Source of the DNA: Cladopsammia gracilis
Taxonomy: Eukaryota > Cnidaria > Anthozoa > Scleractinia > Dendrophylliidae
Assembly: GCA_022457155.1 (NCBI GenBank)
Contig: JAJGOT010000457.1
Coordinates: 372,001 to 436,000, forward strand
Reading direction: 5' to 3'
DNA length: 64,000 nt
The notes under the pieces: generated by a model
Seen by the model: the letters and a program-made list of their open reading frames with translations, nothing else
The model's database searches: none
What the model was told of the DNA's origin: nothing
Part shown: in pieces, positions 18,541 to 32,232 of the stretch
How the letters are laid out: each line of letters begins with the position of its first letter
How positions within the stretch are numbered: position 1 is the stretch's first letter
Position numbers and translations under genes: made by a program

Positions 18541-21500
18541 TAATAATAATAATTATTATTTAAGTGTCAGAGTATTTAGCTTACTAGCTAATTGTGGACA
18601 CTAAATACGATGATTTAAGATGTTTACTCTGATTGACCTACTTCACGAGGTAGTTTCGACCTAAGGCAGATGGAACATGTTGGCGCAAATGTTGTCTCTT
18701 TATCAAACAGTGCATTGCCCTTCGTTCTTGAAGAATTTCAGAAGTGAGAATAAACCACAAAATCATATAACAGCACGTTCGAGTTCTGTTTTATCGGTTC
18801 ATGTGTTATTATGAAGATTTCATGCGAGCTTATGCCTGCTTCATAAAACATTAATTATAGAAACAAGCGTGGAATGTGTTTTAAATTTAACAACTAATGT
18901 GAAGAATGAAATTACGAACATGTTTACGGGAAACGTGTTTCGTTGAAACATGTTTACTATAAACATGTTTCGGTGCTAATGTGAACACAGCACAATATAT
19001 CGGGAAAAGGATGTCATGGGCATGCATAAGAAACATGAATGCTACATTCTTATGTACTACGTATACGTATAAGAACAGTATAAGAAGCCGGATGTGGCCA
19101 ATAATTATTGCTAAAGCTTGCACTTAGTCCACATTCCTGTAAACCACGTATGTACCTATGATTGTTAATTTCTCTATTACGAAGGCTACCACAGGAAACC
19201 TCCAATTCGTTCATGGTTCATGACCAGTGATGCAGGTGTGAAGGGTTGAAGATGGGGTTTTGACATTTCCATAACGTCATTTTGCGTCAATATTGACGTT
19301 GGGTAGCATATCCGGTGAATTGTGCTGACTGCACAAAAACCGGATGATTAGCTGACCGCAAGAAAAGGAGAACGTCAAGGGCAAGTCACCCAGGAAAACA
19401 ATTGATTTTATTTCCCTATTTCCCTCGATTCCGGCCACATTGGGAAGGTCCCCTTTTTTTTCCTACCTCCGGTAGAGTTCCCCAACTCCCTGTCTCTCGC
19501 AGTTTAGAATTTCCTCTCCATGATCTAACCATGATGTTATAATAAGTCTGGGTTAATTGATAGGTTTTTTAATTGGTTCGAACTGTCAGGTTATTATGAA
19601 GATCACAGCCGGCTTCCTCGGAAAGATCCCCTGGACCACTGTCAAGTCTACGATCATGAAGACGTTATCATGGCCCCGCGTACAGAAATGGTTTACAACG
19701 CACCTCCTTCAAAGAGCTTTGGGCAGAAACATTTCAGAAGATGAGTACATTCTTTTGGATGACGGAAAGTGGATTAAGATGGCGAATGTGGTGAAGTATC
19801 CTTACTTCAAGCGTGCCATTGAAAAGGTAACTTTTTACATATTATATTCTTTGCGAGTGTTGAAAGCAAACATAGCAAGCTTTAGATTGAGATTATCACC
19901 TAATATACAGTGACAATTATACTTAAATATCAACACCCTAACCTAACCTAATTTTTTCAAGATGGAATCCATTTCCACCATCTTTTTTATTTATAGTTTC
20001 AGGGCACCAGTAGAGGGATTTTAAGGGAGGTGGTCATTCAAAAATACACCCTTTCTTCCTTTCTATCTGTCTAATCCATCCATCCATCCATCCATCCATC
20101 CAGTTAATATACTGATGTAAAATATTGTAATTAGTATATGTAGTTATATATTTTCACGGCTTTTGTGAAAAACAAAAGTGCAATTATTTGTAATTTTTGA
20201 CAAAGTCACCGTGGGTAAATAAAGTTTTTCTATTCTATTCTATTCTATTCTATTCTATTCTACCATCTATTCTACCATCCATTCTACCATCTATTCTACC
20301 ATCCATTCTACCATCCATTCTACCATCCATTCTACCATCCATTCTACCATCCATTCTACCATCCATTCTACCATCTATTCTACCATCTATTCTACCATCC
20401 ATTCTACCATCCATTCTACCATCCATTCTACCATCCATTCTACCATCCATTCTACCATCCATTCTACCATCCATTCTACCATCCATTCTACCATCCATTC
20501 TACCATCCATTCTACCATCCATTCTACCATCCATTCTACCATCCATTCTACCATCCATTCTACCATCCATTCTACCATCTATTCTACCATCCATTCTACC
20601 ATCCATTCTACCATCCATTCTACCATCCATTCTACCATCCATTCTACCATCCATTCTACCATCCATTCTACCATCCATTCTACCATCCATTCTACCATCT
20701 ATTCTACCATCCATTCTACCATCCATTCTACCATCCATTCTACCATCCATTCTACCATCTATTCTACCATCCATTCTACCATCCATTCTACCATCCATTC
20801 TACCATCCATTCTACCATCCAGCTGTAAGTGTCTTGGTATCGAAATTGATGGTAGCTTAGGTTGGACTAGCCTTAAAGAAAGAAGAAATAAGCAAAAAGC
20901 GCTTATGATGTTTAAAATTATAAATGGCATGGCACCAGCCTATTTACAGAATATTTTTACGAATAACATCGGGCGTTCGACTTATAATCTAAGGACTTCT
21001 AGTTACAATCTACCTTTACCGGTAGCTAAAACTGATTACTACCGAAAAAGCTTTGCATACACCGGAGCGAAAGTTTGGAATATATTACCAGAAGAGATAA
21101 AATCTGAAAAGTCCGCGAGTGCATTCAAAAACAAACTAGCATCTCTCAATCTCCCTATTGAATTTTAGTATTGTTCCGAATTATTGCTCTGTTTTAACCG
21201 AAATACTTATTTTATTCATAGTTAATATACTGATGTAAAACATTTTAATTAGTATATGTAGTTATATATTTTCACGGCTTTTGTGAAAAACAAAAGTGCA
21301 ATTATTTGTAATTTTTGACAAAGTCACCGTGGGTAAATAAAGTTTTTCTATTCTATTCTATTCTTCTATCCATTCTACCATCCATTCTACCATCCATTCT
21401 ACCATCCATTCTACCATCCATTCTACCATCCATTCTACCATCCATTCTACCATCCATTCTACCATCCATTCTACCATCCATTCTACCATCCATTCTACCA

Positions 21501-24500
21501 TCCATTCTACCATCCATTCTACCATCCATTCTACCATCCATTCTACCATCCATTCTACCATCCATTCTACCATCCATTCTACCATCCATCCATTCTACCA
21601 TCCATTCTACCATCCATCCATTCTACCATCCATTCTACCATCCATCCACCCTACCATCCATTCTACCATCCATCCACCCACCCACCCATCCATCCATGTC
21701 CGCGAGTGCATTCAAAAACAAACTAGCATCTCTCAATCTCCCTATTGAATTTTAGTATTTTTCCGAATTATTGCTCTGTTTTAACCGAAATACTTATTTT
21801 ATTCATAGTTAATATACTGATGTAAAATATTGTAATTAGTATATGTAGTTATATATTTTCACGGCTTTTGTGAAAAACAAAAGTGCAATTATTTGTAATT
21901 TTTGACAAAGTCACCGTGGGTAAATAAAGTTTTTCTATTCTATTCTATTCTATTCTATCCATCCATCCATCCATCCTTCCTCTCTCCATCTCTCCCTCTC
22001 TCCCTTCCTTCCTTCCTTTCTTCCTTCCTTCCTTCCTTCCTTCCTTCCCATTTTGGTAATTTAGGACTGTTTTGTTCCGAAGTCCCTTTTGTGAATGGAA
22101 CATATTGTTCCCAAATTGGTAATTTAGGAACAATTTAGGACCGTTTTGTTCCGAGTTCCCATGTGTGAATGGAACACATTGTTCCCAAATTGGTAATTCA
22201 GGAACAATTTAGGACTGTTTTGTTCCGAGTTCCCATGTGTGAATGGAACATATTGTTCTCATATTGGTAATTTAGGACTGTTCTGTTCCGAAGTCCCATC
22301 TGTGAATAGAACATATTGTTCCCAAATTGGTAATTTAGGAACAATTTAGGTACGTTTTGTTCCGAGTTCCCATGTGTTAATGGAACACATTGTTCCCAAA
22401 TTGGTAATTCAGGAACAATTTAGGACTGTTTTGTTCCGAGGTTCCATCTGTGAATGGAACACATTGTTCCCAAATTGGTTATTTAAAAACAATTTAGGAC
22501 CGTTTTGTTCCGAAGTCCCAGCTGTGAATGGAACATATTGTTCCCAAATTGGTAATTTAGGACCAATTTAGGACTATCAATTTGTTCCGAAGGCCCATCT
22601 GCGAATGGAACGCGATGTTCCCAAATTGGTAATTAAGGAACGATTTAGGTACCGTTTTGTTCCGAATTCCCATCTGTGAATGGAACACATTGTTCCCAAA
22701 TTGGTAATTTAAGAACACTTAGGAGCGTTTTGTTCCGAATTCCTACCTGTGAATGGAACACATCGTTCCCAAATTGGTGATTTTGGAACATGTGTTCCTA
22801 ACAGCCTATTCCTTTTCATACTTAAGAGGAACAATTGTTCTTTCTTACTGTAAGTGCTTTAATATAAACAATATTTTAAGGCACGCACAGCCCTGCTTGG
22901 GCAAGTTCAACACCATTTTGGTTGTATCACACTGTCATGAATTTTGCACAATAGTAATAAGGGCGGGCAAGCAAGGCCATGTTGTGGCAAGTTGAAACAT
23001 GCAAGAGGTTCCTTTGTTTGTCATTCGTTGCTCAGTTTGGTTGGTTTTTGCTAAGGTGAAAAGGCAAGTGTGTTGGCCAAATGTTCCTTAAAGGGAAAAA
23101 TGAGCAAGAAGTGCAAAGTCGAATGGTCAAACATTGATGGAGCATCACCAAAACCTAAACGACTTCACTTGGAAAAGGACGAAACAGATACTTTGTATCA
23201 TTGCCCAATACAAGTGTGTGACCATGATGGATTTCAAAGTCAGCGAGGGTGCAGGAAACATGTAAATACCAAGCACAGTTGGTTCTTTTATTTTGACGAA
23301 AAGCCCGACCCGAAAGAAATCACAGATTCGTTACAAGTAGCAAGGGACGTTTCAGTGACAACAACAATTGGTGTTAAAACAAGTGAAACCCCAAAACATG
23401 CCGTCAAAGTACTTCCTTCATTTTCAGTCTCTGATAAAATTGGCGGAGTATTCACAAAATGGTTGACCGGAAGTGGCGGTGGTTGCAAGAAAGATCGTGC
23501 AGCTAAACAGTTAGTGACAAGATGCTTTAAGTTTCTTAAATTTTGTTGCGAAGATGAGGAAGAGTTGACTTTTGACGTGATGGACTTTAGTCTGTGTTCT
23601 CCAAATCTGTACGTTGTTCAAGTTTATCGACTACTTGCAAGACGAATGCAAGCTCGGACATGGTGGACGTTTGGGATACATAGATGCTATTTCTGATTTA
23701 ATCGACTTCAGAAAACTTCATGGTGCATCAGACGCAGTTCTTCAAAAGTTATCCACGACGGAGTTGTACCTTAAAAGGGCCCGAAAGACAGTTGCAAAGA
23801 TGATGAGATTGCAGTGGACACAGGATATAGACATTGACACTTTGGAAGCAAGAGGGCACTGGGCGACAATGGAGGAATTGTTGGAGGTGGTGACATTTCA
23901 CTTGCCGCGCTACGAAAACACCGTGAAGATGTGCAAAAGCAGTCCAGGACAAGTTAATCCCTCAGACTTAACATTTGCCACGAACTTTGTAGCGATGTAT
24001 TTGTTCATCAAAGTCAAGGGGTCGCGGCCTATGACTTATCAGTATTTGACGGTAGAAATGATCAGTACAGCTAAGGAAAACGGTGGATTTATTGATCAGA
24101 AAACGTTCAAGACTGCTGGAAAGTATGGATTTGATTCTTTGATTCTGACCGATACAAACATGCAAGTGCTTGATGGCTACATCTCTTTCGTTAGGCCATT
24201 GCTAAAACCCCAGTGCGACTTTGTTCTGGTCACCAGAAATGGAGGCCAACATAGCAAATTGGGCGAGACTATGAGCAAACTGGTTTTTGATGCAATTGGA
24301 AAATACATCCATCCTACACGTTACCGTCAAATCGTTGAAACACAAAGCCTCAATCAGCTCACTAGCGAAGAGCAAAGGATTTTGTCGGAAGACCAAAAAC
24401 ACAGCTCTGCAGTTGCTAAAGTTCACTATCAAAAACAACGATCCCGAGAAGTGGCTATGAAGGGACACGAGTGTCTACAAAAACTCCAAGGTACCAAAGG

Positions 24501-27500
24501 AACAGAGGTGGATAAGGACGTCCACGCAAGGTTTGGCATTTCAACTTCGAGCTCGGCAACGTCAGTTGAAGCTGACGAAGAAAAGACAAGCTCACTCCCC
24601 CCTAACAGGGATGATTATCCCACGGGAAACTTGCGCATTCAGAGAAAACTTCGCCGGGTGTGGAAATTCACGACAGCGGAGGACGTGTTTCTAAAGCAGG
24701 GAATAAATAAGCACGGGTTTGGACAGTGGACTGCTATTTTGAGAGATGACGATTTCCAATTTCAAGAAGGAAGAACCGCGGACTCTCTAAAGAAAAGGGC
24801 TGGACTCAAAATGCCCCTAGCTTAATAAGGCTAGAAAAAACGCAGATCAAACTGTATACGCAACAGAACCATTCGTTTTATTTGTGACTTTGATAAATAC
24901 GTTCTGTTTATAAGTCATTGTTACACTTGGAAATCAAAACCAGAAATAAATGAACATCAAAACAACAATGTTTATGGTTGGCTGGAGAAATAGTTCAATA
25001 TTGTATTGGAGCAGGTTTTCTTCTTCTTGCCGCTTCTAGCCTGAGATCTGTCTAGGCGGGTTCGCTTTTTTCCCTTTTGCGATTCTCCCCGGACGCGGCG
25101 TGTTCTCTCAAATTGTATGTGGTCGACTTCCCAGCTTGCCACCTGTGTCAGGAACATATCTTCGTCATCCTCGTTGTTGCTTGGTTCGTGTTCTTGTTCT
25201 TGTTGCAGTGCTTCTGCGCTCTCTCCAAGCTCTTCTGTTGTTGGCAGGGCCTCGAAGACGCACTTGACCAGGTGGCTGTGTCGCTGCTGAAGCAGACCCA
25301 TTTCAACGCAGGTTCGCCTTCGTTCATCTAAGGCCTCCTTGGTGCCGAGTGTTCCAATGTTCTTGTGATGATTTTTCAACTTGTCTTGTAGGACTTCCAG
25401 CAGGGCACCCATGGATGCTTTGAAGTTTTTATCTAGGCTGGTGTGCAGTTGTTTGACGCAGTCATGCAACTCCCTTTCGGTCTTTTTCAACCAGGTGCCT
25501 TGGAATGCTTGACGGGCTTTCTCGCGTCGACGTTGTTCTTCATGCGCTCTTTGTTGGTCGCTACGCCTCTGCAGCTCCCTTCGAATCGGAGTGGGCGTCA
25601 ATGCGTCTGGTTCTGGTGGCAGCAAGTCTGCGCTCTGGGTGCTTACTCCCATCTCTCTCAAGGCAGCTTTTCTCAACTGGTGTTGCTTTTCAGTGAGGTT
25701 CTTTTGCGCTGTTCTTTTTCGTTCTTGTTCTTGGAGCATGTGCTTCACCTGCCTGTATCGCAGACTGTCCGGATCGGATCTGCTCAACGTTGCTCTCAAA
25801 TCGTCAAGAACATCGCTTGACGTGGAATCCGCGGCAACGTCGTCGGCATCAGACTGTTCCATAGCATCGACAGGACCTTCTTCGTCACTTGCTTCCGCTT
25901 CACCAAATTGGGTCTCTTCGACAAGTGGATTAGTGAGTGACAGAGATCGCAGATCTTTCTTTTCTTGTTCTTGCAAAATTCCTTCTTCGTTTTGTGACCT
26001 CTCGTCGTCACTGTCGGTGACGTCATCGTCATCACTCTCGGTGTCGCTTGCACAGGATTTGGCTTGCTCTGCAGCCCACACGACGCATTCCATGGCGTGC
26101 TTTTTCAACCATGCTGCCGCTTTCTTCTTGGGGTTTTGGAGACTCTTAAAATGGTACGTGCGAAGACGTTTATCCATGGCAGGTTGGTGCACGGGACCAA
26201 AATCCAGTTTACGCTGTGCTGTAATCAGCATTGGGCATTTATTGATAAATGCCCTGGCTGTCTGATACTTGACGTCATGAGCGGCGTATCCACCCTGTGT
26301 GAGCACTTTCCAGTCAGCAATGTCCAAGGTGTTCACGTCTGCTTCATCAATGAAGATTTCGTCTGTAAATGGGCTTATCATTGCTTTACTAAAAGCGCGT
26401 TGCTTTGTCACTGTTGCAATATTTCCATGATGTATTAGTCCCTGTATTGGAAAGAACAAACTTGTCTTACCACTGTTGGCATCTCCAACAAGGCATGGAA
26501 CTTTGTCTTTGTGCTCTTTCTTATTGTAATTCAGCAGTTTGAGAAAATCTTCACAGAAGGTTGACACATCGCTTTGGGAGAGGCTGTTCTCCAAGATCTC
26601 CTGAAAATACTTAGGGTTGGCTTCTTTGGTGGAGTCATAGGCACAAAACGCCCTGGGTGATACCCTGCCTATTTGATGCTCTTCAATGGTGTTTTCTAGG
26701 AAGGCACGGTTTTTCAGGGACCAACAGACACCGTCGTTGACTTCTATCAGATTGTAGTCAATGGTCAGTGGCTGGAAGAGTTCGCAGTGTGGATCTGCTA
26801 ACAGTTCGATGATTTTTCTCATTTCTCGGATGAGTCTCGATTTAAACTGCTCGTTCGTAGCGAGAGTGTTGATGAATGCTCTTGCCTCGCATTTAAAGGA
26901 GTACGTGTACCTTGATCTCGGGTTCTTTTTGTACACTTTACCTCTGTAGCTGGCATATTTGAGCTTCTGCATTGCAATGGTTATGTCATTGACGAGAATT
27001 GTTAACTTGTCAGAAAGCCGTATTTCTTCCTGTCCAAAAGACAGAGTAGCCTCGTTGAGAATGTTGAAGCCAAACATGTCTAGTTGCAGTTTAGCCTCGA
27101 TCATCTTCTCTAGCGCTCTCGTTAATGACTGGTGAAAACTATTGTTGATTAAAGTGATGCGCACGACATTTTCTGTTCCGCAATCTTCAAGTTCTTGGGA
27201 AGAGAGAGGTGACATTCCAACCAGATGGCCAAATTCATCTTGGTAGTTGTTTTGGTACGATGACGCCACAAGTTCCTGCATGCAAGGGTTTCTGTGGTCT
27301 TTTAAGACTTTATAGAGTTCCTTGATGGCGATGCATTCTTTTCCATCTTGAAACTGTACCTGAAACAAAATAGAAAACTTTCATTCAGTGCACGGGAAAC
27401 TAAAATACGTTTACGTTTCAAGCCTCTTTGTTCATACTTAACCAGTCTGTAAGACACTAATTTGTAAGAGAGAAGGTATGTCATTAAATCGCAAGCAAAA

Positions 27501-30500
27501 ACGGATTGTCATAAATTTCTATAGTTCGTAATACCTGATTTGCCGTGACCCCCACTCCACACTCCAGCAGTGCTCGATGGACCACGAGTGGATTCGCAGG
27601 AGCTCCATTAGGTGTCGTCAGTGCCAGCCAATAGGTAATTGAAGGCCAGAGTGACTTGTTGATGGTTGTTGGATTTCCATCAAGTACAGCTTGTTGAGAT
27701 GAAGTAGCGGGCGTGGGACTTGGATCTTGATCTTCTTCGCTGTCATCGCTTTCGTTTATACTCCCCTTCTTCTTTTCTTGCGTTGATATGGCACTGAAGA
27801 AGAAAGCCGCATTCGGTATACCTTGAAAAAGAGAGAAATACATGTTAAGCGCTAGTCAAATAAGGCCAATTTTAAAAACTAAACTAACCTGAAATGGCTT
27901 TGTCACAAGAATCTCGCTTCTTGCAGATGGCGTTCCATGATTTTGGCAGGGCTTTTTCTTTCACGTTCCACACACATTTGGCACTAATGATACTACACTG
28001 GCCAGAAACTACGGGACTCATGTAACATAAGACAGTTCCTCTTATTGCTTCGCTGTTTAACTGCTTACTCGGCTGCTTGGCAGGACGCATCTTCGCCAAA
28101 GTGTGCAGACAAAAACGACACCAAAAACTGCTGCTTAAATAACCATCCTGTACTTGTGAAATTAATAGGAATAAATCTGAAGAACTACCACCTAAATTTG
28201 CCTAGAGAAGACTGCACTTTTGTTCCGTTCAACACTTTCTGTGGATGATATTTTTAAGCTTCATTAAGCCTACTTTTTCAAAGACAATGTTGAACTAATT
28301 TACAACTAAGTCAGAAATGACTGTTGTTCATTTTTCAATTGAATAGAAAGTGGTGTTGATTTGGCTTTTGCTAACTTTTGGCAGCTTTATTTCACATGTA
28401 GCGGTAACATCCATTTATTTTGTATTGTAGTTTGTATTTATTTGTTTACTCCATTTTTTATTTTTACAAACGTTTTTGAAACTTACAGGATAAGGTAAAC
28501 TAATTATATGCCCTATGGCTAGAATACATTTTTTTAAGAAAAAAGAGAAAACACACCAAAAAAAAAGAATTGAAACATAGAAGTAATATTTGCGAGACAA
28601 TGATTAATACTGAGCAAAATAAAGTGCTCTTTTAAATTGTTGTCTAGTTTGCTTTTTGCACATGGATATAGGAATATCATTCCAGTAATAGCATCCGATA
28701 ATTGTTGGATAAAATTTTCTTATGTTTATTCTGAATGAACTGGGATTTATGTGTTGTAAGGCTGTACTTCGAGTGGCGTAATTATGTTGCTCAGATGCAA
28801 AGTAATGAAAAGATGAAGAAAAATAGACAAGCGTGGCGTTGATTTGGTTTCAAGGCGATTGTTGCTAACTTTTGGCAGCTTTATTTCACATGTTGCGGTA
28901 ACATCCATTGAACAATAGTAATGAAAAGATGGAAGAAACGTATACAGGGGGTGGTGTTTTCTTTTGATTTCGAGGCGATTGCTACTAACGTTTGGCAGCT
29001 TTATTTCGCATATCACTGTAAACTAACAGCGAAAAACAAACAGCAGAATGTGGTGTTGATTTGGCCTGAAGAAGGTTGTTGCAGCTTTATTTCGCATTAA
29101 GATGCGAAACCTATGTACAGTTTTCAGTGGGAAATCAACGGGTAGAATATGTGCTTGACATGTTCTGAAGGCGATTGTTTGCACTTTGTCATAGCTTTAT
29201 TTCGCATGTTGCTGAAAACTTTAATTGTTTGCATCATAGGACTTAACTGAACCAGCAGAGTATAATCTTGAAAGAGTTTAATGCATCAAGTTATCAATAA
29301 AAATAAGTGGGACTGACAAGAAAGTAGAAAAATCTTTAAAGAAAAACACAAGGTCATTCATTGATATATTCATAATCCCGTTTAATCCGTGAGATCCATA
29401 TGTTCCGTCCTTTTAGTAGAAGTTTGTGTTGTGGTAATATATTACACTAAATCGGCCAACTGACACTGCAAGTTTCAACCAACCAAAACTTCTACTAAAA
29501 GGACGGAACATATGGATCTCACGGATTTAACGGGGATATGAATATGTGATGAATTACTTCTCTCTATTTCTGTAAGTATTTTAAAAGTATATTATCTAAT
29601 ATACTATTAATACATATACTTACAGAAATAGAGAGAAGTAATTCATCATATATTCATATCCCCGTTTAATCCGTGAGATCCATATGTTCCGTCCTTTTAA
29701 TAGAAGTTTGTGTTGTGGTAATATATTACACTAAATCGGCCAACTGACACTGCAAGTTTCAACCAAGCAAAACTTCTACTAAAAGGACGGAACATATGGA
29801 TCTCACGGATTTAACGGGGATATGAATATGTGATGAATTACTTCTCTCTATTTCTGTAAGTATTTTAAAAGTATATTATCTAATATACTATTAATACATA
29901 TACTTACAGAAATAGAGAGAAGTAATTCATCATATATTCATATCCCCGTTTAATCCGTGAGATCCATATGTTCCGTCCTTTTAATAGAAGTTTGTGTTGT
30001 GGTAATATATTACACTAAATCAGCCAACTGACACTGCAAGTTTCAACCAAGCAAAACTTCTACTAAAAGGACGGAACATATGGATCTCACGGATTTAATG
30101 GGGATATGAATATGTGATGAATTACTTCTCTCTAGTTCTGTAAGTATTTTAAAAGTATATTATCTAATATACTATTAATACATATACTTACAGAAAAAGA
30201 GAGAAGTAATTCATCATATATTCATATCCCCGTTAAATCCGTGAGATCCATATGTTCCGTCCTTTTAGTAGAAGTTTGTGTTGTGGTAATATATTACACT
30301 AAATCAGCCAACTGACACTGCAAGTTCCAACCAAGCAAAACTTCTACTAAAAGGACGGAACACACGGATCTCACGGAATTAACGGGAACATGAATACATA
30401 ATCATTTTCTTATCGGCAGATGAATGTCTTGGACCTGTTTTTATGTTCCCTTTTTTACAAGACATACTGACCAAACAATTCTCCCTAAAATGTCGTCCAC

Positions 30501-32232
30501 TGTCAAGTTGAATTAAATACACTTAAAATTGCATGTTTGCCATTAGCCTTGCTAGAATCGATGGCTAAAGGCGGAATCACATAGCTATTTGGAGAGATAA
30601 AGTTCAAAACATGCGAAGGAACAAAAATTTTGGGAAACGACCTTCCCTTCCTTCCTTCCTTCCTTCCTTCCTTCCTTCCTTCCTTCCCTCCCTCCCTCCC
30701 TCCTTCCCTCCTTCCTTCCTTCCTTCCTTCCTTCCTTCCTTCCCTTCCTTCCTTCCTTCCTTCCTCCCTCCCTCCCTCCCTCCCTCCCTCCCTCCCTCCC
30801 TCCCCTCCCTCCCTCCCTCCCTCCCTCCCTCCCTCCTTCCTTCCTTCCTTCCTTCCTTCCTTCCTTCCTTCCTTCCTTTGTTTGTTTGTTTCATTTTTTA
30901 TTTTTTCCACCAATATAAGGTATCAAAATATCAAGTAATCTACAATACTGCTTATGCTCATTTACGTGTTGTGGCAGTGCGCCCCATTAGACGCGCCAAG
31001 GCAAAATTTACGCGGCAATATTTTTCAAATTGCGCAAATCCCGCAATGCCGCACTCTAGAATAAATCCTGTAACTCTGAAATCGACTTGTTGGGCTGAAA
31101 GTATATTGCAATTCCTCAAAGTCGTTGATTCAGGTAGTTTCTCTTTTTTTACAGTTTGGTCCTGATAAGACTTTCAGTCTGCTCAAGGGCTCATTGGGGA
31201 AATTTGATGATTTTTTGTCGCGATGTGAAGAGGATGTTTTCGTCCTGGGACACACCCACGCTTGGGTGGAGAACGAAATTAAGAGTACCAAGAACAAGGA
31301 TTCCATTTTGTATGTTAACACCGGAACCTGGATAGATTCTGCACCCAATGTAAGTATAGTCAGTCCATTTCTGAGACTGCCAAAAGTAGACATCTTAACT
31401 GATCGAGAACTTGTCATAAACGTAAACTGCTTCGTAGATTTATTTGCAATTGAATGGTCATTTAGTTGGGTTTCGTACGACACAGGACCATTGCGAAGAG
31501 CATAATAAACAGCATCTTAGGAGAGTAATGCTTACTACAGTAGCCGTTCCATTGGAATGGTCACAATTTCAGACTTCGTACACAGATTCAAGAGTTATAT
31601 TAGAACCACCTTGTACACGGTGTGATCAACAGCAACACGTAAAAGTTTCTGCTTTCTAACTTTTACATTTTAGGATTTTATACACAGGCTCAAGAGGTAG
31701 AATCTTGCAAAATAACAATAATTACCAAAATACAACTTTCATCAAAAGTTATACTCGACTAAACATGTCTAAGCTTACATAACAAAAGTTGTGAAATTTA
31801 CGTTTTAACGATTTTCCAGCCCGCATGCACCCTGTCTTTGTGATTCCTTAGATATACATGTACAGCTTCAGAAAGTCCACGAATGATTCTTTACGAAAAG
31901 TATCCTCCCAGATCTCGTTAAATATCCCTTGGATCGCATGCCGGTCTTGTTCTTGTTCCTTTTTAGACTTCGAAAAAAGGATCCTAACGAAATGTTACAT
32001 TCCGAATCCATTAGATCATGACGATCTCGTTGCATTGTATTTTTCTATTAAAACGATCATACTTTTTAATGGTGGCTTTTACTTTTAATTTCTCTTCCAG
32101 TTTTCCTTTGCCTACATCGTTTCACCGACGAAGGATAAAGAGGGCACGGTTGAAATCAAGCGACACCACTTAAATCCCAAGGGAACTGATCCGTTTGAAA
32201 CAGTCAAAATGAAAATGTGGTTACCAAAATAA
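222..32232 (+). CDS. Alpha/beta hydrolase - calcineurin-like phosphoesterase fusion gene, 5'-partial, 10 exons seen
   Basis: Exons at 222-478, 1760-2005, 2888-2989, 3452-3692, 12084-12233, 12429-12609, 15964-16416, 19590-19826, 31155-31349 and 32101-32232 (stop TAA) have AG acceptors, GT donors and compatible phases throughout. The first two resemble the hydrolase part that follows GMC/cholesterol oxidases, including the His of [13 protein letters not shown]. After a linker the phosphoesterase motifs appear in order: [29 protein letters not shown] and GHTHAW. All five metal-binding motifs are intact, so catalysis is plausible; the substrate is unknown. The 5' part, presumably GMC oxidoreductase, lies outside the window. 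The introns after exons 2, 4 and 5 start GTTTGT, an unusual donor. That all exons form one transcript is inferred from phase and order; two adjacent genes remain possible. Confidence 0.75.
479..1759 (+). other. Intron with tetranucleotide and ATT microsatellites
   Basis: This intron of the fusion gene holds a degenerate (GTCA)n/(ATCA)n tract at about 564-706 and two (ATT)n tracts at about 1426-1470 and 1577-1622. I see no coding signal in it. Confidence 0.6.
1760..2005 (+). CDS. Exon: alpha/beta hydrolase C-terminal segment with catalytic His
   Basis: The acceptor TTTATAG is before 1760 and the donor is the unusual GTTTGT at 2006. The segment carries the conserved CYLPEST stretch and the [21 protein letters not shown] block, in which His is the expected triad member. 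It ends in phase 1, matching both exon 2888-2989 and exon 3452-3692. Confidence 0.75.
2682..2867. mobile_element. Foldback MITE beside exon 2888-2989
   Basis: The ends read ATTTGGGATATATAAATTAC and, inverted, the same with one change. The interior is also nearly palindromic (GGGCAGTGC ... GCACTGCCC, TTTACGCACTCGTTGG inverted at the far end). It ends 20 bases before the exon. A diverged relative lies at about 2152-2270. A run of AGATTTACATACTATAT repeats at about 2625-2682 precedes it. Confidence 0.75.
2888..2989 (+). CDS. Exon: linker, duplicate 1 (phase 1-1 cassette)
   Basis: These 102 bases (34 codons) have an AG acceptor at 2886-2887 and a GTATGAG donor at 2990. The peptide [20 protein letters not shown]... 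ending PDVDDEATG is a clear paralogue of the start of the next exon. It begins and ends in phase 1, so inclusion or skipping keeps the frame. Confidence 0.65.
3452..3692 (+). CDS. Exon: linker, duplicate 2, longer
   Basis: The acceptor TTTCTTTCAG precedes 3452 and the donor GTTTGT starts at 3693. It begins [20 protein letters not shown] and keeps the LTFPDVDDE block of the previous exon. Where that exon has its donor (ACAG|GTATG) this one reads ACAGACATG, so it runs on through an acidic stretch ([11 protein letters not shown]) to KEPR. Confidence 0.7.
3898..5077 (+). repeat. 1.2 kb repeat, copy A
   Basis: It matches 14,667-15,826 in inverted orientation over its length (for example GCTGTTAGGCTTGG near one end, and a GGCCTGGCC-GAA-GGCCAGG hairpin near the other). 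The flanks 3790-3897 and 5078-5400 match the uninterrupted stretch 13,090-13,890, which shows the site before insertion. No terminal inverted repeats are seen. The hairpin near one end recalls non-autonomous Helitrons, but that is weak. Confidence 0.65.
5359..5402 (+). pseudogene. Relic of a duplicated linker exon end
   Basis: The reading [15 protein letters not shown], followed by the donor-like GTTTGTCAGGTTAATTG, matches both the end of exon 3452-3692 (KEPR|GTTTGTCATGTTAATTG) and that of exon 12084-12233 ([26 protein letters not shown]). The following intron sequence also resembles that after 12,233. No matching acceptor is obvious, so this is probably a leftover of intragenic duplication. 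Confidence 0.5.
5403..7004. other. Intronic sequence without recognised features
   Basis: The first 150 bases resemble the intron after 12,233 (intragenic duplication). The rest, to the TA-rich block at 7,005, shows no gene, clear repeat or RNA signal that I can support. Confidence 0.4.
7005..7158. repeat. TA-rich palindromic element
   Basis: Inverted arms TATATACACTGGTTTTCAAAAACAT and its near-complement (ATGTTTTTGAAAATCAGTGTATATA) flank a (TA)n core. A (TA)n run follows to about 7,215. Confidence 0.6.
7222..7350. repeat. Palindromic MITE set in (TA)n
   Basis: Arms begin ACAGCAGTTTGCAAAAATTT and end with its complement; the inner part (ATATCATTATATCC) is also inverted. A (TA)n tract follows at about 7,366-7,441. 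Confidence 0.65.
7469..7549 (-). tRNA. tRNA-like sequence, 81 nt, with 10-nt insertion (probable pseudogene)
   Basis: On the - strand it runs GTCCTGG ... TCAGGAC (acceptor pairing with one G-U), with an A-box-like GTGTAGTGGTAACAC and a B box GGTTCGAATCC. It differs from the + strand copy at 7,756 by an extra CCAGTCGGCG-type stretch in the anticodon arm. It forms one arm of an inverted repeat with that copy. Confidence 0.45.
7756..7826 (+). tRNA. tRNA-like sequence, 71 nt, with pol III boxes
   Basis: Acceptor GTCCTGG/TCAGGAC, D stem GTGT/ACAC, T arm CGGG-TTCGAAT-CCCG, and a downstream T run (AATTTTT) suit a pol III terminator. The anticodon stem TCGGC/GCCGG encloses an 8-base loop (GCGAGAAA), one more than canonical, so I would not assign an anticodon. 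It could be a diverged tRNA gene or a tRNA-derived SINE head. Confidence 0.45.
7931..8080. repeat. Near-perfect palindrome (arms about 72 bp)
   Basis: The left arm (ATTTCCACCGGTTTTCCGTG...) is mirrored almost base for base by the right arm, with a tiny loop at GTTGCAAC. It is a foldback MITE-type element. Confidence 0.75.
8346..9690. repeat. Dispersed repeat, long copy
   Basis: It starts ATTCAACACATTGAT and ends with a long hairpin (GATATCGCCTAA ... TTAGGCGATATC). Shorter relatives lie at about 55,481-55,672 and 59,489-59,800. This copy has about 1 kb of extra internal sequence with a second CAATGTGTTGAATTATAAAA block near 9,380. Confidence 0.55.
9701..10552 (-). pseudogene. Penelope-like element 1: endonuclease part (GIY-YIG)
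   Basis: This 283-codon frame contains a GIY-YIG nuclease core, [20 protein letters not shown], then RFNNH further on, and a Cys-rich stretch before it ([11 protein letters not shown]). It continues the reverse transcriptase at 10,543-11,547 but in another frame, so one indel near 10,545 separates the two halves. Reading as one polyprotein is the family norm. The dispersed repeat ending at 9,690 abuts its 3' end. Confidence 0.85.
10543..11760 (-). pseudogene. Penelope-like element 1: reverse transcriptase part
   Basis: The open frame 11,547-10,543 has the reverse transcriptase blocks [43 protein letters not shown] and the catalytic [12 protein letters not shown]. Reading upstream in the same frame gives [20 protein letters not shown], a TAA stop (11,566-11,568) and then ADKGSGVVI, typical N-terminal Penelope sequence. 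A stop plus the 3' frameshift make this copy dead. It has no close neighbour gene; it sits in an intron of the + strand fusion gene. Confidence 0.85.
11844..11872 (+). ncRNA. Hammerhead-like core, CTGATGA - stem - GAAA
   Basis: CTGATGA is followed by a stem AGGCAGC/GCTGCT and GAAA, the catalytic core order of hammerhead ribozymes, which occur in Penelope-like elements. It lies just upstream of element 1 but on the opposite strand. I could not find helix I and a clear cleavage site, so activity is doubtful. Confidence 0.35.
11970..12042. repeat. (TA)n microsatellite
   Basis: A pure (TA)n run of roughly 70 bases lies 40 bases upstream of exon 12084-12233. Confidence 0.85.
12084..12233 (+). CDS. 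Exon: linker between hydrolase and phosphoesterase
   Basis: The acceptor is CTTCTTAG and the donor GTTTGT. The 150 bases keep phase 2-2. The start ([15 protein letters not shown]) resembles the acidic stretch of exon 3452-3692, and its end resembles the relic at 5,359, so it belongs to the same duplicated-exon series. The peptide looks like a disordered linker. Confidence 0.65.
12429..12609 (+). CDS. Exon: phosphoesterase motif I
   Basis: The acceptor CTTCTTAG is before 12429 and the donor GTAAGG at 12610. It encodes [20 protein letters not shown], holding the first metal-binding motif (D-x-H) of calcineurin-like phosphoesterases. It ends in phase 0, matching the next exon. Confidence 0.8.
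12649..12933. mobile_element. MITE with inverted ends GCAGATAATTAGATGC
   Basis: The left end GTAGATAATTAGATGC and the inverted right end GCAGATAATTAGATGC differ by one base. The interior carries GGACACTTCGTGACG-like repeats in both orientations. It lies 40 bases after exon 12429-12609. Confidence 0.7.
13487..13756. mobile_element. MITE with AACCCTTTAAGCCCTAA ends
   Basis: AACCCTTTAAGCCCTAA and its inverted counterpart TTAGGGCTTAAAGGGTT bound it. It contains a tandem duplication of about 65 bases (ACATGATCACACAAGATGAG and near copy). Confidence 0.7.
14187..14352. mobile_element. Foldback MITE
   Basis: Arms of about 75 bases start AATAGACAATATTCGTATTC and end with its complement; the loop is AT-rich. 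Confidence 0.7.
14667..15826 (-). repeat. 1.2 kb repeat, copy B (inverted)
   Basis: This is the inverted partner of copy A. Together they form an inverted repeat with about 9.6 kb between the arms. Short open frames inside both copies (around 4147-4371 and 15335-15559) are the same sequence and match no family I know. Confidence 0.65.
15964..16416 (+). CDS. Exon: phosphoesterase core, motifs II-IV
   Basis: This 453-base exon is phase 0 at both ends. It encodes [12 protein letters not shown] (motif II, GD), [12 protein letters not shown] (motif III, GNHD) and RFAHGHDWD (motif IV, GH). The acceptor is TTTTTTTTCCTCAG and the donor GTATAC at 16417. It is the strongest single piece of evidence for a functional phosphoesterase. 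Confidence 0.88.
16464..16642. mobile_element. MITE with ATAGAGTGTTT ends
   Basis: ATAGAGTGTTTGCAAGTGAC and its inverted partner (GTCACGTGAGTAAAAACACTCTAT, aligned with small differences) bound a core with CGGCGGCCATATTGG in both orientations. It follows exon 15964-16416 by 47 bases. Confidence 0.7.
17490..17810 (+). repeat. 55-bp tandem repeat
   Basis: The block CTTAACTTTGAATCATATGA starts near 17539, 17594, 17649, 17704 and 17760, a 55-base period. Degenerate single copies occur near 16,885 and 17,370. Confidence 0.8.
18415..18989. mobile_element. Non-autonomous DNA transposon with TGTGTTCACA-type ends
   Basis: The left end TGTGTTCACACTAGAG and right end CTAATGTGAACACA are inverted, with AAACATGTTT copies near both ends. 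An (AAT)n microsatellite (about 18,503-18,555) is internal. Confidence 0.6.
19590..19826 (+). CDS. Exon: phosphoesterase insert region
   Basis: The acceptor ACTGTCAG precedes 19590 and the donor GTAACT starts at 19827. The 79 codons keep phase 0. The peptide (...[20 protein letters not shown]...) sits where the family has a variable helical insert between motifs IV and V. A second frame is also open for about 50 codons, but only this one joins both neighbours. Confidence 0.65.
20061..22050 (+). repeat. Composite array of LINE 3' ends and 12-bp satellite
   Basis: Three copies of one LINE 3' end (each ending GGGTAAATAAAGTTTTTCTA then TTCTA repeats) start near 20,103, 20,821 and 21,697. Between them lie long arrays of ATTCTACCATCC (20,240-20,820; 21,365-21,690), and CCTT/ATCC tracts close the right side (to 22,050). 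The satellite appears to have grown from the LINE tail. Confidence 0.8.
20821..21168 (+). pseudogene. LINE reverse transcriptase C-terminal fragment
   Basis: The reading [15 protein letters not shown] ... [20 protein letters not shown] ... [19 protein letters not shown] ends at TAG 21,166-21,168. This is the C-terminal region of a non-LTR reverse transcriptase. The jump from DGSLGWT to the QKALMMFKI block is shorter than usual, suggesting an internal deletion. A shorter copy, ...[18 protein letters not shown], recurs at 21,697-21,755. Confidence 0.75.
22097..22770 (+). repeat. Iteron-like array, ten copies, 74-bp period, palindromic core
   Basis: GGAACAYATTGTTCC (one copy starts A; one reads GGAACGCGATGTTCC; one ends GTTCTC) starts at 22097, 22171, 22245, 22308, 22382, 22456, 22530, 22607, 22682 and 22755. 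Each is followed by CAAATTGGTAATT and then TTTTGTTCCGA in the next unit. Spacing is mostly 73-77 bases, close to seven helical turns. Confidence 0.85.
23100..24825 (+). pseudogene. Tyrosine recombinase with C2H2-like N-terminus and Myb-like C-terminus (one frameshift)
   Basis: The first ATG in frame is at 23,100. An N-terminal Cys/His region ([13 protein letters not shown] ... [11 protein letters not shown]) suits a zinc finger, preceded by the basic KPKRLH. The catalytic order is complete: Arg in [12 protein letters not shown], Lys in IDQKTFK, H-x-x-R in [11 protein letters not shown], and [12 protein letters not shown] with His nine residues before the Tyr nucleophile. The C-terminus ([16 protein letters not shown] ... 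[11 protein letters not shown]) is a Myb/SANT-like fold of telobox style. The frame moves by +1 between 23,598 and 23,614, so the gene is broken unless the shift is programmed. It resembles Crypton recombinases in layout, but the helicase partner does not fit them. Confidence 0.8.
24826..24971. terminator. Overlapping poly(A) signals between convergent genes
   Basis: AATAAA on the + strand (24,945-24,950) serves the recombinase. AATAAA on the - strand (complement of 24,877-24,882) serves the helicase. The two 3' ends must overlap within 146 bases. Confidence 0.6.
24972..28099 (-). CDS. SF3 helicase of the mobile element, three exons, about 961 aa
   Basis: Exons 28,099-27,889, 27,821-27,535 and 27,359-24,972 join in frame (donors GTTAGT and GTATTA; acceptors TTTTTCAAG and TTTGTTTCAG). 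Exon 3 holds Walker [11 protein letters not shown], Walker [10 protein letters not shown], a B'-type stretch ([12 protein letters not shown]) and motif C as PMLITAQ, with Gln where Asn is usual. This order is that of superfamily 3 helicases, as in parvovirus and papillomavirus replication proteins. An acidic, then coiled-coil/basic tail follows and ends [12 protein letters not shown], resembling a PCNA-binding box. I see no HUH nickase motif. All frames are open, so this gene may still be functional. It probably unwinds element DNA for replication or excision; that is inference. Confidence 0.82.
28380..29225 (-). repeat. Right-end repeat array of the element, five copies
   Basis: Copies of (GG)CAGCTTTATTTC(A/G)CAT start near 28380, 28874, 28994, 29081 and 29190, preceded in most by GGTGTTGATTT and GGCGATTG. 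Spacing is about 90-120 bases once the LINE insertion between copies 1 and 2 is removed. The unit is unlike the left array. Confidence 0.7.
28420..28800 (-). mobile_element. LINE 3' fragment inserted in the right array
   Basis: On the - strand it reads [20 protein letters not shown] ... [12 protein letters not shown] ... FKRALYFA, the C-terminal end of a non-LTR reverse transcriptase, followed by an AT-rich tail. The array repeat is cut after GGTAACATCCATT and resumes at AGTAATGAAAAGATG, as continuous in copy 2. Confidence 0.7.
29364..30396. repeat. Array of alternating palindromes, about 285-bp period
   Basis: Four copies of a foldback (arms of about 60 bases with CCGTGAGATCCATATGTTCC) alternate with three copies of a second palindrome (GATGAATTACTTCTCTCT ... 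inverted). The units lie at about 29,364, 29,648, 29,935 and 30,217. The outermost arms are more diverged than the inner ones. Confidence 0.85.
30640..30885 (+). repeat. Pyrimidine-only tract, (CCTT)n/(CCCT)n
   Basis: About 245 bases of pure C/T in tetranucleotide blocks, TTCC at both ends and TCCC in the middle. It could form triplex DNA. A related tract lies at 21,955-22,050 on the other side of the mobile element. Confidence 0.9.
31155..31349 (+). CDS. Exon: phosphoesterase motif V (GHTH)
   Basis: The acceptor TTTTTTTACAG precedes 31155 and the donor GTAAGT starts at 31350. It encodes [14 protein letters not shown], the last metal-binding motif, then [15 protein letters not shown], the usual closing strands. 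It follows an 11.3 kb intron that holds the recombinase/helicase element. Confidence 0.85.
32101..32232 (+). CDS. Terminal exon of the phosphoesterase fusion gene
   Basis: The acceptor TTTCTCTTCCAG ends at 32100. The 43 codons ([20 protein letters not shown]...) end ...MKMWLPK and TAA at 32230-32232, a typical last beta-strand segment for the fold. Confidence 0.75.
   Translation, partial: FSFAYIVSPTKDKEGTVEIKRHHLNPKGTDPFETVKMKMWLPK

Follow-up and report, generated by a model that had tools for sequence, protein, structure and literature searches.

Which kind of element, if any, unites a tyrosine recombinase gene and an SF3 helicase gene that may lie in one intron of the stony coral Cladopsammia gracilis? 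A sequence-only reading had placed both between positions 22055 and 29230 of the window, the whole 64,000-nucleotide stretch analyzed, and proposed a new element type, closed on each side by its own tandem array, that excises by recombination and replicates or amplifies with its own helicase. We show that a mobile DNA element pairing a recombinase gene with a helicase gene is present at numerous places in the C. gracilis genome, and that both genes are real and parts of this one element. To the explanation as a whole, in which the window holds a damaged copy of a mobile element that stony corals carry in multiple copies, we assign a probability of about 0.7; the family is probably also present in other hexacorals. 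The best reading is a circle-forming YR element, complete members of which appear to carry a replication helicase with a PCNA-tethering-type tail. No prior description of it was found in the open-access papers searched, Repbase being outside that scope. The defects of the window copy are an absent left arm and a frameshifted recombinase, and the borders first drawn have to be shifted, as the element continues past 29230 to a right end at 30642 and the left arm is missing (features in the table).

Features of the element copy in the window (positions of the window; strand where given)
Feature	Position	Strand	Remarks
Left array	22045..22790	+	10 copies of 74 bp; 8 exact GGAAC-N5-GTTCC palindromes
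Putative tyrosine recombinase gene	23101..24825	+	reading frame interrupted between 23610 and 23616
C2H2-like zinc finger of recombinase	23199-23276	+	by eye
Recombinase R motif	24016-24048	+	
Recombinase candidate K	24094-24123	+	
Recombinase HxxR	24310-24342	+	
Recombinase H-x8-Y	24394-24438	+	
Myb-like DNA-binding domain of recombinase	24652..24750	+	C-terminal; Pfam PF00249
SF3 helicase exon 3	24972..27359	-	ORF 24972-27368
Arg motif	26148-26174	-	
Motif C	26214-26237	-	
Motif B'	26256-26312	-	
Walker B	26337-26357	-	
Walker A	26460-26486	-	
SF3 helicase exon 2	27535..27821	-	GT-AG borders; continuous in P0002
SF3 helicase exon 1	27889..28090	-	with start codon
Right-hand region	28345..29217		4-5 degenerate repeats around GCTTTATTTC[GA]CAT; inside element
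284-bp tandem array	29356..30396		~100-bp inverted repeats; inside element
Right recombination arm	30624-30639	+	AAAATTTTGGGAAACG; element-derived half spacer ACC at 30640-30642

The recombinase had been credited with a complete set of motifs. Its R, HxxR, and H-x8-Y motifs do follow in order; the K is a candidate only, and the broken gene is split over two plus-strand ORFs in the window (23070-23696 and 23614-24825). The order and spacing R...K...HxxR...[HW]...Y, a pattern defined after the sequence had been seen, recurred in 116/120 recombinase relatives and all six known YRs, as well as in 1/120 helicases and 84 of 20,000 shuffles, and catalytic order and spacing agree with those of XerC, XerD, Cre, lambda Int, FimB, and FimE. 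Homology of the catalytic domain found no support in Pfam (no match to the integrase family PF00589), PHROGs, NCBIfam, PDB, or hhalign; the latter gave probabilities of 0.18-0.45% to known YRs versus 0.17-0.40% for reversed controls, with a query too uniform for an informative comparison (effective diversity, 1.3-1.5). We keep the assignment as a putative tyrosine recombinase because of the motif order and the DNA ends described below. The Myb-like domain was detected in 25/25 recombinase relatives scanned (E 0.1), and its best PDB matches are TRF2 and TRF1. Selection estimates for 10 recombinase pairs were 0.13-0.14 in four, 0.30 and 0.81 in two close pairs, and saturated in the other four.

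The helicase has the complete SF3 order of Walker A, B, B', and C in its minus-strand ORF, as first described. It is encoded by three exons with GT-AG borders, and predicted coral proteins, e.g., P0002 and P0044, read through the same exon joints. SF3 motif C usually ends with Asn; here the last residue is Gln, invariant over a 56-row helicase alignment. Among these 56 relatives, Pfam matched DUF5906 in 33, NS1 (PF01057) in 19, and E1 (PF00519) in 16, and 15 also matched a GTPase model via the P-loop. P0305 reached 28.5 bits with PPV_E1_C (curated cut-off, 26.5) and P0039 exceeded the curated cut-offs of Parvo_NS1 and DUF5906, while no Pfam match was obtained for the window ORF at E 1 or for P0309 at 0.01, and no convincing family match for P0002. 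The helicase alignment had no PDB relatives at E 0.1, P0305 retrieving only weak rows of Lon protease and the like. No primase domain was identified in the helicase; one relative weakly matched the P4-family primase C-terminal model TIGR01613 (21.4 bits; cut-off, 108.7). An HUH nickase, which the initial inspection had not seen either, was not apparent, with no conserved H-x-H in alignment columns with >30 letters and exons 1 and 2, present in few rows, inspected by eye in five proteins. A PIP-box-like motif ends 83/90 long helicase relatives (control windows, 82/4500), and in the window this C-terminal tail adjoins the stop. Purifying selection acts on the helicase, also between subfamilies that diverged deeply. 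Fifteen pairs were compared, 10 close and 5 between subfamilies; the latter gave pN of 0.23-0.30 versus pS of 0.73-0.86, the only informative comparison in the four of these five with saturated dS. Nine close pairs gave ratios of 0.15 to 1.01, and one had no synonymous change.

The convergent arrangement of the two genes seen in the window is a property of the family. The helicase listing comprised 65 rows, which merged into 46 loci, and the 104 rows for the recombinase merged into 103; they were drawn from the best 56 of 477 helicase and the best 103 of 387 recombinase candidates scored. A recombinase was located within 3 kb at 31 of the 46 listed helicase loci (chance, ~0.03), convergent in 31/31. 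At three of the 15 unpaired helicase loci the recombinase was 5.1 kb (C141), 7.3 kb (C868), or 121 kb (C1354) away; the remaining 12 had none on the contig, and 72/103 recombinase loci had no helicase within 3 kb, both among the matches listed. Since reading of contig C964 revealed a 32nd pair, unpaired loci may be losses in listing. Contigs of equal size are no more than suggestive of the same pairing in other genomes, for P0019, P0029, and P0084 among 79 of 120 listed helicase rows and for P0274 among 72 of 120, each compared with the best 120 of 1243 recombinase hits. Pairing and orientation rule out a chance neighborhood of the two genes. That two unrelated repeats merely adjoin, or that host genes were segmentally duplicated, as the repeat-rich setting with its other arrays might suggest, has next to no probability in this genome in light of the convergent pairs on many contigs, the shared ends, and the unoccupied target.

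The element ends are sharp and formed by inverted arms (CGTTTCCCAAAATTTT). In the window, the bases to the right of 30642 are (CCTT)n target. The left arm has no match there with up to 3 mismatches, and the left end is truncated: (CCTT)n abuts the array at 22048, and a stretch of at least 340 bp or so that leads up to the array in sister copies has been lost. Genome searches returned 63 left ends (≤2 mismatches) and 155 right ends (≤3 mismatches; 100 of the 155 places listed), and none with reversed patterns. Head-to-tail units meet as arm-8 bp-arm (16+8+16), a lox-like circle junction. Junctions of this type (≤3 mismatches) were detected at 8 and 19 places, one of them common, giving 26 distinct places on many contigs and with several spacers; reversed patterns gave 0. 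Such arrays could also be the product of unequal crossing-over alone, following one insertion and with no circle ever formed, and the near identity of neighboring units on C1298 (2/5136 bases differ, 99.96% identical, with copies elsewhere differing by 0.6-2.5%) would fit this origin. We consider it improbable, because a first end-to-end join without host DNA, repeated on many contigs and with several spacers, would need end joining at the recombinase site.

The integration target was read from an insertion on C19, the joined flanks of which align over their full length with 40 places (in one case starting at base 2) at 95-96% identity, these being the best 40 of 166 candidates scored. In 5/5 unoccupied copies read, the junction is continuous and, for this one insertion, target duplication is absent; compared with them, the joined flanks are without one A ~3 bases right of the junction. 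A YC precedes the crossover at 13/13 non-tandem left ends, target bases having been read at 30 end loci with 4 tandem ones left out; spacer positions 4-8 were fixed by the left search and 1-3 by the right search and are no evidence. The lack of target duplication at the compared insertion indicates conservative integration of the tyrosine-recombinase type after YC. DDE transposition was considered and is unlikely, given one unoccupied target without duplication. Excision by recombination, as first proposed, and integration by the recombinase are strongly supported by the circle-type junctions together with the unduplicated target, the enzyme activity itself being deduced from DNA ends and targets.

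The arrays that had been taken to close the element on both sides fared differently. The left one was recovered, with 8 palindromes versus a mean of 0.03 in shuffles, and a GGAAC-N5-GTTCC array was present within 1.5 kb, inside the element, at 15/15 left ends read (of 63); we propose that it may be an iteron-like array of binding sites. On the right, the degenerate region aligned to sister copies and the 284-bp array is internal, so that no array closes this side. The pair therefore recurs at unrelated loci with shared sharp borders and the left array, as anticipated, but not with an unchanged right array: the 284-bp array differs in copy number between element copies. Further arrays occur in the window, a repeat-rich setting.

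Units lacking the helicase domain are common and still form arrays. Four such units were read, all with N-terminal helicase remnants (4/4), and in L057, L058, and L060 the helicase domain is gone and the recombinase stays open. In L060, a C280 unit, remnants at 6571-6327 lie on the expected strand (best E 5e-17 with 193 helicase relatives; 0 rows on reversed sequence). Two antisense frames of L060 give a weak match. C280-type units form a large group of at least 21 of 104 rows listed, and the junction type of L060 is exact at 16 places. The remnants suggest that the helicase is ancestral, in the C280 type too, and the four units without the domain that it is dispensable in cis. A plain YR transposon carrying the helicase as cargo for a use other than replication, e.g., excision-site repair or host-cell regulation, would accommodate both the open recombinases of the deleted units and the spread of the C280 junction; it is nevertheless unlikely in our view, considering purifying selection across deeply split helicase subfamilies, the uniformly convergent close pairs, and the replication-type tail. 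We infer replication of the element by its own helicase, the other half of the original proposal, from a helicase that is conserved and selected, although helicase-deleted units are common and form arrays as well.

The E1/NS1 Pfam matches of the SF3 helicase raise the question of a degraded endogenous virus, related to papillomaviruses, parvoviruses, or Polinton-like viruses, that has lost its capsid genes. Genes for a tyrosine recombinase as well as an SF3 helicase occur in some Polinton-like viruses (PMC4642659), and these viruses and virophages resemble the coral element in that a single integrating element unites the two classes of enzyme; theirs comes with capsid and packaging genes, none of which were found in the coral units read. 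In L022, all ORFs of ≥100 aa belong to or overlap the two genes, and the right part of L021 has ORFs of 61-89 aa only. These ORF contents, the lack of a conserved H-x-H column, and the absence of a confirmed relative in viral_contigs with either alignment, two peptide patterns being used for each, make a viral descent very improbable, and a virus with capsid was rejected because the units read have no such genes and viral_contigs gave no confirmed match. The same two units have no ORF of a size for reverse transcriptase, a DIRS/Ngaro trait.

Papillomavirus E1 and parvovirus NS1 share the SF3 domain with the coral helicase, which differs in its recombinase partner, the Gln ending motif C, the lack of a conserved HUH pair in the columns tested, and the lack of capsid genes in the units read. 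P4-type integrating replicons and satellites of prokaryotes combine an integrase with an SF3 primase-helicase. The coral element exhibits the same division of labor between integrase and helicase, but has an animal host, a spliced gene, a PIP-type tail, a Myb domain, and no identified primase domain. Cryptons, of which CryptonA occurs in cnidarians and other animals, likewise possess a tyrosine recombinase with R-H-R-Y; they are proposed to move as extrachromosomal circles, recombining at short direct repeats at their termini, and are reported to be without terminal inverted repeats, animal Cryptons also lacking a C-terminal domain or terminal repeats (PMC3212892). In the coral element, a short YC(T) match replaces the terminal direct repeats, and inverted arms, a Myb domain, an iteron-like array, and an SF3 helicase set it apart; the word "helicase" has 0 occurrences in that paper. 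It describes YR recombination sites as inverted arms of 11-13 bp around a 6-8 bp spacer, an architecture resembled by the coral junction with its 8-bp spacer, and eukaryotic DNA YR elements are described in PMC4157794 as having the YR domain only.

From the end structure, unoccupied target, and target bases, we propose that the element leaves the chromosome as a circle cut out by the tyrosine recombinase, the joined ends forming a lox-like site of 16-bp inverted arms and 8-bp spacer, and that the circle would reinsert conservatively behind a pyrimidine-C step without duplicating its target, CT-rich microsatellites being a frequent site. The observed head-to-tail arrays might arise from circles or multimers inserting at the same junction, or from later unequal exchange. 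The helicase would most likely load onto the left palindrome array, or onto an origin close to it, and drive circle replication by host polymerases before reinsertion; helicase-deleted units may be supplied with it in trans or may not need it for their amplification. Taken furthest, and with somewhat less than even prospects in our estimate, this would describe a class of plasmids that integrate into animal chromosomes: circular replicons of two genes, with their own iteron origin, an E1-like helicase tethered to host PCNA, and a lox-type recombinase that stores them in the chromosomes, singly or as head-to-tail multimers, and accompanied by dependent helicase-deleted satellites.

In our judgement, it is not obvious by what means a mover that cuts and inserts conservatively could increase in number, and a partner replication helicase would be a direct and testable answer, the circle being copied and then reinserted. 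The circle junction arm-ACCTTATA-arm provides a basis for a PCR assay of circles, and the arm-spacer-arm site is a possible new lox-type tool. The helicase-deleted units may represent a case of satellite and helper within one animal genome and, if the proposed reading is true, the element would be a plasmid-like parasite living inside the genome of an animal.

A search of the window's own assembly (878 Mb) with each protein, with the pieces merged into loci, found at least 46 helicase and at least 103 recombinase loci among the matches listed. A recombinase lies no more than 3 kb away at 31 of these 46 helicase loci, all 31 pairs being convergent, against 0.03 pairs expected by chance; the pairing proposed by the sequence-only reading thus recurs across the genome. 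The element is real, multicopy, and mobile. At one helicase locus without a listed recombinase, on contig C964, a convergent, interrupted recombinase was present on reading; the helicase there is about 34% identical to P0002, a predicted protein of Oculina patagonica. What breaks up the recombinase at this locus is an insert containing a 112-aa frame of its own (L061:1347-1685).

Features of the window copy and its left surroundings
Feature	Position	Strand	Remarks
Recombinase gene	start 23101, stop 24825	+	zinc-finger-like N-terminal stretch (by eye), YR-type catalytic core, C-terminal Myb domain
Break in recombinase frame	between 23610 and 23616	+	
Helicase gene	28090 to 24972	-	three exons, GT-AG borders
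Left palindrome array	22045-22790		GGAACAnnnTGTTCC
Right-side 284-bp units	29356-30396		~100-bp inverted repeats with 36-bp loop
12-bp arrays, two	20257-20821; 21360-21673		ATTCTACCATCC
Duplicated 254-bp stretch	21111-21364; 21698-21951		99% identity

The helicase exon joints are spanned by predicted coral proteins such as P0002. Named helicase relatives are from stony corals (Oculina, Montipora, Acropora, Porites, and Desmophyllum), and a more distant helicase query also found the Nematostella vectensis protein P0309. Since its recombinase frame is broken and its left arm is missing, the window copy looks immobile.

Alignment of near-identical copies showed that the unit runs past 22055..29230, the borders first claimed for it. 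Its left end starts TTATA-CGTTTCCCAAAATTTT, and AAAATTTTGGGAAACG-ACC forms its right end. On contig C1298, the units of a tandem array follow at 9.96-kb intervals and are joined by AAAATTTTGGGAAACG-ACCTTATA-CGTTTCCCAAAATTTT, a 16-bp inverted pair flanking 8 bp. Pattern searches of the assembly, allowing up to 2 mismatches for left ends and up to 3 for right ends and junctions, detected 63 left and 155 right ends and, with two junction patterns, 26 distinct junctions; reversed patterns yielded 0 in each case. Two more junctions, on C492 and C584, were deduced from neighboring left-end and right-end coordinates. Of 5136 sites compared, 2 differ between adjacent C1298 units, against a divergence of 0.6-2.5% from copies on other contigs; these figures fit multimer insertion or recent duplication better than independent insertions. 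The 82.8-kb contig C424 begins exactly at an element right end (positions 1-26), which may mark a break in the assembly within an array.

The C19 copy is inserted within another repeat, and its joined flanks align over their full length with at least 40 places at 95-96% identity, one of these alignments starting at base 2. In all five unoccupied targets read for this one insertion, GCC|TG was uninterrupted and target duplication was absent; compared with them, the joined flanks have one A fewer about three bases right of the junction and scattered substitutions. The two target bases preceding the crossover, left free by the end-pattern search, are YC in 13/13 non-tandem left ends, and position 4 at right ends is T in 9/13; targets are often, though not always, CT-rich microsatellites. 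The lack of duplication and these target bases are explained by integration as a circle whose 8-bp spacer is split 3|5, and the DNA evidence gives good support to this mechanism of excision and insertion. A stretch in the left flank of the C135 copy, immediately before the insertion, resembles an older copy's right end (L027:1430-1500), suggesting nested or repeated insertion.

The recombinase motif order R-K-HxxR-H-x8-Y is spaced as in XerC, XerD, Cre, lambda Int, FimB, and FimE; this pattern, fixed after the sequence was seen, was also fitted by 84 of 20000 shuffled core sequences. Profile methods (Pfam, hhalign) found no recombinase relationship to known tyrosine recombinases (YRs), the family alignment being too uniform. 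Counted together, motifs and DNA ends point strongly to a YR. Cryptons, compared by description, are the nearest class, and the coral element moves as they are thought to. However, in the part of PMC3212892 available, Cryptons lack inverted ends and animal Cryptons lack a C-terminal domain, whereas the coral element has inverted arms and its recombinase a C-terminal Myb domain. Likewise, DNA YR elements are said in a portion of PMC4157794 to possess a YR alone; the coral element has a helicase gene as well. Filing under Cryptons was rejected, as neither of the two described features tested was found. Polinton-like viruses can carry both YR and SF3 helicase, but with capsid genes, according to an excerpt of PMC4642659. 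No earlier description of the coral element was found in the open literature searched. Adjoining the C1092 copy, an open 679-aa frame matches DNA_pol_B_2 (L024:7954-9993; PF03175, E 1.9e-21), and possibly derives from a Polinton-type element.

GGAAC-N5-GTTCC repeats occurred in all 15 left ends fetched, of 63, so in these the left array travels with the element. The right array, with which the sequence-only reading closed that side, differs between units (284, 161, or 187 bp) or is absent; the 284-bp units could be a nested palindromic element. As the 64-bp array of the C280 unit shares only the palindrome with the 74-bp window array, this palindrome is what is conserved in cis, and it most likely serves an element protein as binding site. 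Units that have lost the helicase domain still carry it, which makes the recombinase, with its zinc finger and Myb domain, no less likely a binder than the helicase. The recombinase Myb is TRF-like. The palindrome is shaped like a steroid-receptor response element, and the units also contain TTTAGGA, which is similar to the telomere motif that TRF-type Myb domains bind.

Among 56 helicase relatives, Pfam matches (E 0.01) were to DUF5906 (33), Parvo_NS1 (19), and PPV_E1_C (16), and 15 also matched a GTPase P-loop model; some relatives passed the curated cut-off. The window's helicase ORF alone had no Pfam match. H-x-H was not conserved in the alignment columns tested; few rows of the alignment cover the N-terminal exons. 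The motif [ILMV]xx[FYW][FYWL] lies within the last 16 residues of 83 of the 90 relatives of at least 740 aa, versus 82 of 4500 control windows, and resembles PCNA-interacting peptides. Five between-subfamily comparisons gave pN of 0.23-0.30 against pS of 0.73-0.86, so selection has maintained the helicase protein; a replication role is plausible but unproven.

The main result opposing a strict two-gene machine comes from units lacking the helicase domain. Three keep an open recombinase (608 aa in L057 and L058, 596 aa in L060 on C280), and L060-type units make up 21 of 104 recombinase rows among the matches listed, with near-equal scores. In L056, an internally deleted unit of the window's type, the recombinase is open across the core and broken ahead of the Myb domain. 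All four retain N-terminal helicase remnants, so the helicase is ancestral and its loss occurred repeatedly. Its dispensability in cis leaves two options: action in trans, or replication as an extra strategy. The helicase-deleted units also fit satellites that depend on complete copies.
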